This document shows positions 13,139 through 15,921 of a DNA stretch of 40,664 bases, piece by piece (positions within the stretch are counted from its first letter, which is position 1; every line of letters begins with the position of its first letter). A program made the translations under genes and the position numbers. The notes under the pieces are model-generated. The model had not been told where the DNA came from. It saw only the letters and a list, made by a program, of their open reading frames with translations, and did no database searches. The stretch is from an uncultured Oscillospiraceae bacterium (GTDB taxonomy: Bacteria > Bacillota > Clostridia > Oscillospirales > Oscillospiraceae): positions 1 to 40,664 of the forward strand of contig CALWXA010000023.1 of NCBI GenBank assembly GCA_944385395.1, in the 5' to 3' direction.

Positions 13139-13175
13139 AAAAAGCACCGGAAGGATATCCTTCCGGTGCTTTTTT
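13139..13175. terminator. bidirectional intrinsic terminator
   Basis: Perfect palindrome with 18-base arms, A-rich on the left and T-rich on the right, between the convergent YabR gene and the Cys-tail membrane protein gene. It can serve both strands. Confidence 0.9.
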
Positions 13176-13186
13176 ATGGTGGCATA

Positions 13187-14260
13187 TCAGATTGACTCTT
13201 TCCGGAGTTTATCCGTCAGGGATTTGCTCAGATTCACGGCGCCATAGAGGTTCTTGGCGCTGCAGCCCGCCCGGCCGCCGCCGGCACAGGCGCAGGCACA
13301 GGCACAAGCACAGCTGGAGGCGCAGGCGCAGTGCCCGCCGCCGCCAAAGCCACCGCCGCCGAAACCGCCACGGCCGCCGCCAAAGCCGCCGCCGGAGGTC
13401 TTGGGCTTGGTCTTGGTGCCGGTGCTGCCGGGCCGGGGTCTGCCGTCCCGTCCTGCGGGGTACCAGAGGCCATGGTAAAAGACATAATGGGTACCGAAGC
13501 CGCCACGGTAGCTCCGGGCCGCCCGGGAAAAGACCGTGATGAAGATCACCAGCATCACCACAAAGACCACCAGGGTCATCTGACTGATGATCCGGCCGGA
13601 ATAATCCGGCTCATATTCCACCACCGGCATGTTGTCCTTGCTGTTTTCCCACAGAAGCTCCGTGGGCCAGTCCTCATAGCGCATCACCAGATCCAGCTTG
13701 GCACCATAGGTCAGGTCATATCCCGTCCACTGCACCACATTGCCGTTCTGAGTTTCCTCAAAAGTAGGGGGAACTACCAGGGTATTGGTCCCTGCAACGC
13801 CCTGAGGATGGGTCCAGGTGACGGTCATGGACTCAATGAGGGCTTCATCGAACCAGCCGGTGGCATAGTCATACTCCACAGCGCTGCCGTCCAGGGTATA
13901 CATATACTCCTGGGTCCAGCGGTAGGAAAACTCGATGATCTCCCCATCGTCATAGCCACGGTCGAAGTAGACGTACATATAGCTGTTGTCAAAATCCAGG
14001 CTGGCGATGTTATCCGTCAGCGCCTTCACATCCCGGATACTGCCGTTGGGAATGCCGATTTTCACCCATTCCACCGGGCCTTCTGCCAGCACCTCCCAGC
14101 GCAGGTGGACCGTCATGTCCAGACTGCCGTCCTCCGTATTGGGCGCTATGGTAATGTCATAATTGCGGATATAGTCCAGGTCCCCGGCATAAGCCGTGGG
14201 CACCGCTGCCAGCACCCACACCAGGCAGGCGGCCAGCAGCACCATCATTCTCTTTCTCAT
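13187..14260 (-). CDS. membrane protein with DUF2207-like ectodomain and cytoplasmic Cys-Ala repeat tail
   Basis: A 357-residue protein. It has a signal peptide (1-25, ending PTAYA), an extracytoplasmic domain of about 200 residues whose start (YDITIAPNTEDGSLDMTV) recalls DUF2207, one membrane helix (about 226-244) followed by Arg-rich RAARSYR, then a Gly-rich region (289-309) and a tail HCACASSCACACACACAGG at 310-328. By the positive-inside rule the tail is in the cytoplasm. The mature protein has eight Cys (311, 313, 317, 319, 321, 323, 325, 333), all in this tail. Its start overlaps the stop of the radical SAM gene (ATGA), so it may be the substrate of that enzyme. A metal-binding tail is the alternative. 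Family naming is tentative. Confidence 0.8.
   Translation of the reverse strand: MRKRMMVLLAACLVWVLAAVPTAYAGDLDYIRNYDITIAPNTEDGSLDMTVHLRWEVLAEGPVEWVKIGIPNGSIRDVKALTDNIASLDFDNSYMYVYFDRGYDDGEIIEFSYRWTQEYMYTLDGSAVEYDYATGWFDEALIESMTVTWTHPQGVAGTNTLVVPPTFEETQNGNVVQWTGYDLTYGAKLDLVMRYEDWPTELLWENSKDNMPVVEYEPDYSGRIISQMTLVVFVVMLVIFITVFSRAARSYRGGFGTHYVFYHGLWYPAGRDGRPRPGSTGTKTKPKTSGGGFGGGRGGFGGGGFGGGGHCACASSCACACACACAGGGRAGCSAKNLYGAVNLSKSLTDKLRKESI
13262..13333 (-). repeat. Cys-Ala dipeptide repeat coding segment
   Basis: Codes for residues 310-333 of the membrane protein. The alternating Cys/Ala pattern uses both TGT and TGC and both GCC and GCT, so the codons vary while the peptide pattern is kept. That argues for selection on the protein rather than simple DNA slippage. 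Confidence 0.7.
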
Positions 14261-15645
14261 GCCTCACCCTCCTGATTGCCGGTATGCAGCTGACAGATAT
14301 GCTCCATGGCAGCGCTCTTTTGCCGGATGTCACGGCAGGTAGGACTATCCCAGATGGTCTGCCAGTCGTCGGTGAGGATATGGCCCAGCTGCACGCCGCC
14401 CAGCCAGCTCTGGCAGGGTACCACCGTGCCGTCGGGGGTGATGGCCATATTGGAAAGGCAGGCACCGCAGCTGGGGATCAGATGCAGGCCCATCTCACGC
14501 AGCTCAGGCTCTTCCAGCCAGCCGGGGCTGGTGAAGTCCAGCTCCATTCCCAGCTCACGGGCTGTGGACACCGCCTCCTGCAGCACCGCCAGCAGCTCAT
14601 CATGGCTCAGCCGGGTGGCCCGGCTCTCATCACCCAGAGCTTCACCGGAAGGGATCAGGCCGGAGCAGGTGGCGTACCGCACGCCCAGCTCATGGGCCAG
14701 GCGCAGCGTGGCGGCATAGTCACGGTTCAGGCTGCACAAAGGCGTATTCACCGACACGATGAGGCCGGCGGCCACGGCATTGCGGATGCCCTGCACGGTA
14801 TCGGCAAAACCCGGAGCGCCCACCAGCTGGTTATGTACCGCTTCATCGGCGGCATACAGGGTTACCTGAACGCTGTCCAGACTGGCCTCATACAGCTGGC
14901 GGCACAGATCCGGCGTCAGCAGCCGGCCATTGGTATTCAGCCGGGTGACGAACCACTGGGCCGCTTCCACCAGCTCAGGAAGATCAGGCCGCATGGTGGG
15001 CTCGCCGCCGGTAAAGGTGACCTGGGGAATATTGGCGCGGCGCAGACGGTCCAGCACCTTTTTCCACTCCTCCGTGGACAGCTCCGCCGTCTCGCCCATA
15101 GGCTGCCCGGCGGCGTAGCAATGCAGGCATTTCTGGTTGCAGTGCCAGGCTCCGTCCTTAGTCATGGCGCTGACCATCAGGTCCATCCGGTGGGGGGCCG
15201 ACATATAGGGGGCGTATTCCCCCAGATCCAGCACCGCCACATCCGCATCCGGCTCCTCACCCCGGGCAATGGCCACCAGTGCGGTGATCATGGTCTCCAG
15301 GTCCGCTGCCAGGCGCCGGGCCGAGGTGGCCGGATATACCTTGCGGGTAGCTTTCACCGCCTGGACGGCCATCTGCTGCCACTGTTCCGGGCCGATCTCG
15401 CTATGGCCGGAATACTGCTCCAGCTGGTCCATGAAGTTGGAGAGCAGAATGGCCCAGGACAGATTCAAAGGCACCAGCTGCGCCCCGTTGAGCAGCAGCA
15501 AAAAGGGCTCCTGAGGGCTGTCGGCACGGGGCGGGATCATGTGGATGCGCAGCACACCGGGGCCATGGGGGTCCAGGGTCACATGCCGCACACAGTTGAG
15601 ATGTTCGGCCCGGAAGCGCTGCTCCCGGGAGGTCAAAACGCGCAT
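14257..15645 (-). CDS. radical SAM protein with short SPASM/Twitch-like C-terminus
   Basis: A 462-residue radical SAM enzyme. The [4Fe-4S] motif is C169-NQK-C173-LH-C176, with TGGEP at 212-216 for SAM binding. The C-terminus has C393, C396, C411, C437 and C451 in a pattern like a reduced SPASM or Twitch domain that could hold one or more auxiliary clusters. The first 150 residues are an extra domain ending in a hydrophobic patch (FLLLLNGAQLVPLNL at 48-62) that might bind a peptide, as PqqD-like RRE domains do, but I cannot confirm this. AGGAGGTG lies 6 bases upstream. It is coupled by a 4-base overlap to the Cys-tail protein, the presumed target. Most SPASM proteins modify peptides; the reaction here is unknown. 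Confidence 0.88.
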   Translation of the reverse strand: MRVLTSREQRFRAEHLNCVRHVTLDPHGPGVLRIHMIPPRADSPQEPFLLLLNGAQLVPLNLSWAILLSNFMDQLEQYSGHSEIGPEQWQQMAVQAVKATRKVYPATSARRLAADLETMITALVAIARGEEPDADVAVLDLGEYAPYMSAPHRMDLMVSAMTKDGAWHCNQKCLHCYAAGQPMGETAELSTEEWKKVLDRLRRANIPQVTFTGGEPTMRPDLPELVEAAQWFVTRLNTNGRLLTPDLCRQLYEASLDSVQVTLYAADEAVHNQLVGAPGFADTVQGIRNAVAAGLIVSVNTPLCSLNRDYAATLRLAHELGVRYATCSGLIPSGEALGDESRATRLSHDELLAVLQEAVSTARELGMELDFTSPGWLEEPELREMGLHLIPSCGACLSNMAITPDGTVVPCQSWLGGVQLGHILTDDWQTIWDSPTCRDIRQKSAAMEHICQLHTGNQEGEA

Positions 15646-15676
15646 AAGCCACCTCCTGCAGGTGTGATTTTTCTAC

Positions 15677-15705
15677 AGTATAGCATCCCCAGGAGGCAAA
15701 TGCAA
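15677..15705 (-). promoter_or_regulatory. sigma-A promoter for the radical SAM operon
   Basis: On the minus strand TTGCAT (15700-15705), 17 bases, TATACT (15677-15682), about 32 bases ahead of the radical SAM start codon. No operator-like repeat overlaps it. Confidence 0.7.
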
Positions 15706-15921
15706 TCACCCGCCTGCAGGCAAAAAAGGGAGCCGCCCTGCCAAGCAGAGCGGCCCAAGCGGGTGGGATATTGGAAAGCTTCCGATATGTATGATAGTGC
15801 ATGGGGCCAATTTTGTAAATAGGAGCTTTTGACGAAGCTTGACCGGTTTTGGGACTCTCTGTCGGCCCGGCAGGCAAATCTGAAAAATTTGTGAATTATG
15901 CCCAAATAACCCACGAGCTAC

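Follow-up and report, generated by a model that had tools for sequence, protein, structure and literature searches.

What does a radical S-adenosylmethionine (SAM) enzyme do beside a membrane protein that ends in a run of alternating Cys and Ala residues? The question is raised by two genes on the minus strand of a 40,664-nucleotide stretch (referred to as a whole as the window) of contig CALWXA010000023.1, from assembly GCA_944385395.1 of an uncultured Oscillospiraceae bacterium. The enzyme and the tailed protein are a real, tightly paired two-gene unit, marked by its anatomy, its conservation, and a near-obligate pairing in the samples searched. We consider it probable that the unit is a dedicated one in which the enzyme modifies the cytoplasmic tail, most likely by introducing thioethers, and in which the protein stays in the membrane.

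Pairing of the enzyme with the tailed protein

Separate profiles of the tail, the enzyme, and the ectodomain were searched against 391 genomes of the class. The tail-only profile matched 11 of them (the window's genome included), the enzyme-only profile matched the same 11 with E values of 2e-58 or better, and the ectodomain-only profile matched the same 11 again. Since four of these genomes share one genus, they represent eight genera; hypergeometric tests of co-occurrence, both of which ignore relatedness, gave 1.4e-21 per genome and 7.5e-15 per genus. After a gap, the next matches of the enzyme profile (15 genomes, 5e-49 to 8e-43) cover residues 165-448 only, without the N-terminal domain, and no open reading frame (ORF) within about 1.5 kb on either side of these loci contains CACACA. 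By eye, the N-termini at these 15 loci (L097-L111) look PqqD-like, and the three ORFs inspected carry odd Met/Leu/Phe/Pro/Ser-rich stretches before the N-terminus. In the window's genus, the enzyme is found in 19 of 21 genomes; the tail was looked for in 14 of them, the 2 that lack the enzyme and 12 chosen from those that carry it. Tail and enzyme are together in the 12 and both absent from the 2 (G605 and G641). The enzyme profile was also run against 139 genomes of the phylum, where only matches at E≤1e-50 were examined. All seven such matches (window included) adjoin a membrane protein with a Cys-Ala tail; the query was tail-free, and the tail type of four of these loci (G653, G771, G737, and G658) occurs in no query. 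Thus, the tail tracks the enzyme clade.

The association was also seen from the side of the membrane protein. A scan of genome contigs yielded at least 62 loci, a set biased towards tails because one of the six scan patterns was the Cys-Ala run, and a further locus from a gene-order search brought the related loci to 63. Chance Gly-rich matches without a Cys tail (L003-L005) and duplicates of the window and of L002 (L001 and L006, respectively) were left out of the counts. The enzyme is present in 60 of the 63 tailed loci (in some of them truncated by a contig edge), and two loci with split reading frames and the tail in the second ORF (L016 and L037) are counted as pairs. With the window included there are 65 pairs, in which the tailed gene lies downstream on the same strand 61 times, mostly overlapping the enzyme gene or a few bases away, on the opposite strand three times, and upstream once (distances are from the longest ORFs). 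The tailed gene of L059 and L065 begins at the contig edge and the enzyme lies on another contig of the genome, where L065 has no more than a 244-aa open frame that aligns with residues 4-235. The tail and enzyme matches of G389, G426, and G562 are likewise on separate contigs, with the tailed gene reaching the contig end in each. These results bear out the co-occurrence for which the preliminary description had proposed a gene-neighborhood check, and they support its central claim, that the enzyme modifies the tail on the intact membrane protein, as no intact tailed homolog without the enzyme was found in the searches.

Two tailed proteins accompany one enzyme of the family at L013, L019, L025, and L029 and in genome G432; in the four loci, the tail cores of each pair are identical at 16-18 of 18 residues and the ectodomains at 101-112 of 172-177 (59-63%). 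Pairwise distances of enzyme and ectodomain are correlated (r=0.87, 53 loci, 0 of 2000 permutations), which partly reflects a shared species history. At L028 (5992-6798), the tailed gene lacks its 5' end, including the signal peptide, and is therefore a probable decaying remnant; the enzyme is missing from that assembly. In G505 (L122 and L125), a one-contig genome, an ORF that looks transposase-like by eye splits the tailed gene, and the enzyme ORF is full length.

The pair has no conserved third gene around it: with the pair itself and antisense ORFs excluded, the most frequent neighbor families occur in five loci each. Neither a peptidase nor an exporter is conserved nearby (an ABC-transporter-like family appears in only five loci), in agreement with the earlier observation that none is adjacent in the window. 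At three G653-type loci (L171, L173, and L167) two proteins come after the enzyme, both with N-termini that look signal-like by eye, and in L171 one of them is weakly DUF4097-like and the other unmatched; this group possibly has an extended unit. The pair was seen in Lachnospiraceae, Oscillospiraceae, Bacilli, and Eggerthellaceae and, if the assemblies are clean, also in an Aminicenantes and an archaeon. It is not described in the titles, abstract openings, and some passages of the listed literature matches, a search with subscription papers and bioRxiv outside its range.

The tail, the membrane protein, and the enzyme

The tail of the window protein, HCACASSCACACACACAGGGRAGCSAKNLYG, follows a Gly-rich linker. 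Cys residues are at positions 12 (in the signal peptide), 311, 313, 317, 319, 321, 323, 325, and 333, so that the mature protein has all eight of its Cys in the tail. The preliminary description had noticed this, together with the 4-base overlap of the genes and the order of signal peptide, outer domain, one helix, Gly-rich linker, and tail; each of these was recovered here from the ORFs, hydropathy, AlphaFold2, or the sequence. A five-unit CA run was retained in 2 of 100,000 shuffles of the 35-residue tail, but conservation argues more strongly than this that the repeat is real. Across 66 proteins, mean column identity reaches 0.97 in the tail core (residues 319-333) and 0.83 in the tail (residues 311-337), compared with 0.51 in the ectodomain, 0.48 in the linker, and 0.27 in the membrane helix. 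The residue after a block Cys (446 Cys in the same proteins) is Ala in 429 cases, Val in 14, Phe in 2, and Gly in 1, and the interval between Cys residues is a single Ala in 295 of 380 cases, the remainder being mainly ASS or AHSS. This near-absolute Ala suggests that it serves as the acceptor or that no other residue is small enough to fit the active site. In an extended strand, the alternation would put every Cys on one face and every Ala on the other.

Every tail type seen has a last Cys after a Gly/Ser-rich stretch of about 4-6 residues. The last residues of the tailed protein are CACACACACASSGGCT or CACACACACAGGGGCT in G653, G771, G737, and G658; the block is CACVSCACACVSCACACACAGGGGAGC in G694 and G732, with the same type in L062 and L064; and a variant, GG(R)VGCSERGYQVLHWL, stands behind the repeat in G426, G497, and G505. 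The 18-nt core encoding CACACA has 49 distinct nucleotide sequences among 64 genes, which means that the protein is conserved and not a DNA repeat; the varying codons thus rule out a repeat artifact. An exact DNA pattern for (CA)4 matched 14 of the 391 class genomes (a reversed control pattern matched 1). The extra genomes G213, G255, and G282 fall outside the gene family, and the three chance sites lie in a 23-residue open stretch, in a 76-residue stretch, and in a stretch before the likely start codon of an unrelated gene.

Hydropathy of the window protein shows a signal peptide and a single membrane helix, and the tail is disordered in the AlphaFold2 model (predicted local distance difference test [pLDDT] score, 80.8). 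Tailed relatives (n=66) have ORF lengths of 269-576 aa. A single helix after the ectodomain places the ectodomain and the tail on opposite sides of the membrane, and the tail would be the cytoplasmic part. Net flanking charge favors an inside C-terminus in 53 of the 66 members, in line with the charge rule from which the preliminary description had argued. A CxxC..CxxC motif after residue 200 (41 of 66 members) and matches to two Pfam zinc-ribbon models (12 of 64 and 10 of 64 members) also fit a reducing cytoplasm.

In the family libraries searched (Pfam and NCBIfam), the window membrane protein has no match at E≤1. A weak Pfam match to DUF2207 (PF09972) occurs in 9 of 64 aligned members (E≤0.01, best 8.8e-6) and is absent from the window protein, three G653-type proteins, and the G694 protein; judged from these matches, the ectodomain is probably DUF2207-related. 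DUF2207 proteins have the same plan of signal peptide, beta-rich ectodomain, and membrane helix that is seen here. Deletion of a DUF2207 protein in Streptococcus mutans was studied for stress tolerance and biofilm (PMC10457818), and no paper among the literature matches listed names DUF2207 together with radical SAM. Foldseek gave only generic beta-sandwich-type matches in the best 50 rows (query TM score, about 0.2-0.4), and the one solved structure found by sequence (E 0.05) was disregarded.

The enzyme is, by its sequence, a member of a radical SAM family without a name in Pfam or NCBIfam. Pfam recognizes Radical_SAM (PF04055, E 1e-21) and SPASM (PF13186, E 3e-10); no NCBIfam model is above its cut-off among the best 25 of 69 matches, the top one being TIGR04055 (103.6 bits against a cut-off of 500). 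TIGR04340 of NCBIfam ("ACGX system"), the targets of which are Cys-containing repeats, matches relatives far below cut-off. Three parts can be assigned: an N-terminus (residues ~1-130) with a predicted resemblance to the recognition element (RRE) of ribosomally synthesized and post-translationally modified peptide (RiPP) systems, a barrel with C169, C173, and C176, and a SPASM/Twitch-like C-terminus with C393, C396, C411, C437, and C451. Among 55 aligned enzymes, C169, C173, C176, C304, C393, C411, and C451 are Cys in all 55, C437 in 51, and C396 in 49; the G505 enzyme has Val in place of C304. A Foldseek search with the AlphaFold2 model (pLDDT, 92.6; 51 sequences) placed SkfB (6efn) first and SuiB next, with TigE and 5wgg, which we take to be CteB, within the first 16. 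SkfB is also the best solved structure by sequence (E 4.9e-22), with the barrel and part of the C-terminus covered. Before the barrel, the model has strands at 32-37, 48-52, and 56-60 and helices at 62-76, 86-101, and 109-127; the RRE-like call is based on this order, which is that of the SkfB RRE, three strands and then three helices (passages of PMC6231123). No signal peptide was seen in the enzyme by eye, and it would be cytoplasmic, on the same side as the tail.

Proposed modification and other readings of the pair

Because the enzyme and the Cys-Ala tail are so consistently together, the tail is probably modified on the attached protein. The enzyme would bind the tail in the cytoplasm through its N-terminal RRE-like domain, and the conserved Gly-rich segment and the last Cys behind the repeat may belong to the recognition site. 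A 5'-deoxyadenosyl radical would then be used to modify the (Cys-Ala)n block, most likely by joining Cys sulfur to a carbon of Ala or of another small block residue, so that short thioether rings would follow one another in a chain. Ala is one of four residues in the thioether bridges of ruminococcin C, according to passages of PMC6779426. The product would not be released: the membrane protein would keep its DUF2207-related domain outside and its uncleaved, modified tail inside, where the tail would probably serve in sensing, redox reactions, metal binding, or docking. A bolder version, which we put forward tentatively, is that this is a widespread, unrecognized system in which one enzyme converts (Cys-Ala)n into very short thioether rings that form an unbroken ladder at the cytoplasmic end of a receptor-like membrane protein, as a permanent, covalently attached structural or sensory element and not a secreted product.

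Several points weigh against this proposal, starting with the fact that tail modification is a prediction from sequence. The ectodomain co-occurs with the enzyme as strictly as the tail does, so presence and absence alone cannot tell which part is the substrate. The Foldseek alignments of the enzyme are near full-length with a root-mean-square deviation of 8-16 Å, indicating that domain placement differs between the enzyme and its matches. According to passages of PMC6231123, SuiB joins two side chains to each other and does not make thioethers, and since it ranks next to SkfB, the chemistry cannot be read from a similar fold. Predicted topology is the basis of the RRE assignment: a profile comparison with the N-termini of another radical SAM group gave a probability of 1.8%, and no PqqD Pfam match appeared among the best 25 of 45 families. 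A longer C-terminal CX2C...C...C is present in the G653, G737, G658, and G694 enzymes and the window enzyme has fewer C-terminal Cys; this variation makes it probable that the number of auxiliary clusters differs within the clade. As for sidedness, counting Lys and Arg leaves a weak positive-inside signal, with more on the inner side in 37 of 66 members, equal numbers in 11, and fewer in 18. A second hydrophobic stretch follows the helix in two of four G653-type relatives, G653 (307-326) and G737 (283-302), and if it were a second helix, the tail would be outside. Finally, there is a stop codon inside the G426 enzyme match, and nearly all named records are metagenome assemblies, in which sequences may have been binned wrongly, the Aminicenantes and archaeal loci being the most doubtful in this respect.

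The strict co-occurrence of the ectodomain leaves room for a reading in which the Cys thiolates stay free, the tail being a metal- or cluster-binding element and the enzyme having another target, such as the ectodomain prior to its export. With its eight Cys so close together, the tail would bind soft metals, and the frequent CxxC..CxxC motifs agree with this. However, the strict single-Ala spacing is unnecessary for metal binding and the enzyme resembles peptide-modifying maturases; the tail is favored over the ectodomain as the substrate because ectodomain conservation is much lower. We thus regard this reading as improbable. Slightly more doubtful to us is that the protein is an unusual RiPP precursor whose tail, once modified, is cleaved from it and leaves as a peptide. 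A Cys-rich C-terminal core with a Gly-rich segment before it and a RiPP-type enzyme would suit such a role, but the lack of a conserved peptidase or exporter, with no neighbor family in more than five loci, speaks against it, as do the architectures seen, which keep the ectodomain and membrane helix with the tail, and the roughly 200 further residues between helix and tail in G653-type relatives.

The type of link is a separate matter. The tail could undergo another change (epimerization, a C-C link, or a beta-thioether, that is, lanthionine) instead of an alpha-thioether, an option that overlaps with the proposed tail modification and competes with its thioether step only. SuiB, a SPASM enzyme, makes C-C links, and sequence cannot tell link types apart. 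Other SPASM enzymes make beta- and gamma-thioethers, as in QhpD and the ranthipeptides (passages of PMC8172795). On the other hand, every block is Cys-rich and SkfB, to which the enzyme comes closest among solved structures, is a sactionine synthase, so that we consider such a change rather unlikely and, by analogy, a thioether the most likely product.

The unit resembles known systems in part. Like the enzyme, SkfB (the sporulation killing factor sactisynthase, PDB 6EFN), SuiB, and CteB have a radical SAM barrel, a SPASM/Twitch-like C-terminus, and, here as a prediction, an RRE-like N-terminus. Their substrates are short peptides, whereas here the enzyme would act on the C-terminal part of a membrane protein made with a signal peptide, without processing genes. 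As in sactipeptide and ranthipeptide systems, a radical SAM enzyme with SPASM/Twitch adjoins a Cys-rich protein, the probable substrate; unlike in those systems, a 357-aa membrane protein takes the place of a short leader/core precursor, and no peptidase or exporter is conserved around the pair. Consequently, the missing short precursor and processing and export genes set the unit apart as a variant of RiPP-type radical SAM maturation and not a member of it. The substrate of QhpD is not known to carry a Cys-Ala repeat. In passages of PMC8172795, QhpD is a radical SAM maturase that puts thioethers into a quinohemoprotein amine dehydrogenase subunit, thus into a protein functioning as a protein; it differs in that this is an enzyme subunit with links to Asp/Glu, encoded in an operon with further maturation genes. 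The closest counterpart in print, a membrane protein whose C-terminal Cys tail is possibly modified, is described in passages of PMC12452194: the TIGR04222 proteins linked to MNIO (DUF692), which likewise have a large domain, a disordered C-terminal Gly/Ser/Cys tail, and an adjacent modifying enzyme. There, however, the enzyme is a nonheme iron enzyme that is missing in one-third of genomes, and the tail is predicted to be outside. The TIGR04222 profile does not match the window protein, and the 12 families to which at least one of 64 members has a match do not include it.

What is known of radical SAM peptide chemistry comes mostly from peptides that are short and cleaved. If the proposal is correct, the same chemistry on a membrane-protein tail would be one that builds cell machinery, and ring closure inside a run of alternating Cys and Ala would, to our knowledge, be a link pattern not seen before. 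The unit consists of two genes with a near-invariant target some 25 residues long, and its enzyme could be used to staple tags onto proteins.

Layout and surroundings of the locus

Table 1. Positions of the two genes and their associated features in the window
Feature	Position	Strand	Basis
Radical SAM enzyme, 462 aa	14257..15645	-	ORF; RRE-like N-terminus, radical SAM barrel, SPASM/Twitch-like C-terminus
Tailed single-pass membrane protein, 357 aa	13187..14260	-	ORF, hydropathy, AlphaFold2
Signal peptide, residues 1-25, contains C12	14186..14260	-	Hydropathy; AlphaFold2 helix 2-19
Beta-sandwich ectodomain, residues 26-220	13601..14185	-	AlphaFold2 strands, pLDDT mostly >90; mean column identity 0.51
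Membrane helix, residues 223-245	13526..13594	-	AlphaFold2, hydropathy
Gly-rich linker, residues 286-310	13331..13405	-	Sequence
Cys-Ala block CACASSCACACACACA-GGGRAG-C, residues 311-333	13262..13330	-	Core nearly invariant in relatives
4-base overlap of both genes	14257..14260	-	TCAT as read forward = ATGA on coding strand
Shine-Dalgarno-like AGGAGG ahead of enzyme gene	15652..15657	-	Sequence
Candidate -10 box TATACT	15677..15682	-	Invariant in three related genomes
Terminator-like hairpin, 16 pairs, separating two convergent transcription units	13139..13174	-	

The tailed-protein gene lies downstream of the enzyme gene, and the preliminary description had given both genes one shared promoter. 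This was not borne out: the site found by a consensus promoter scan is 146 bases upstream and is separated from the gene by a terminator-like hairpin, and the TATACT box about 32 bases 5' of the enzyme start codon, from the comparison of three genomes, is a candidate only. Ordinary genes flank the pair, with those for S4, YabP, YabQ/DivIC, and S1-domain proteins on one side and those for a ribosome hibernation factor (S30AE domains), PadR, and DUF2812 on the other. An Rfam search of the window and nine loci gave no match.

Beside the hibernation factor gene hpf there is a likely small RNA (window positions 15722-15830, minus strand), which has no Rfam match and a folding z-score of only -1.6. 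It consists of a promoter-like TTTACA-17-TATCAT, about 60 nt that hold the block CGGAAGCTTTCCAATATCCCACCCGCTTGGGCCGCTC, identical in three genomes, and a strong terminator-like hairpin. The candidate is present in 4 of 61 family genomes, its own genome counted. At L157, L158, and L159 it also lies near hpf, in stretches of about 3 kb without the radical SAM pair, and it therefore seems to belong to hpf and not to the pair.

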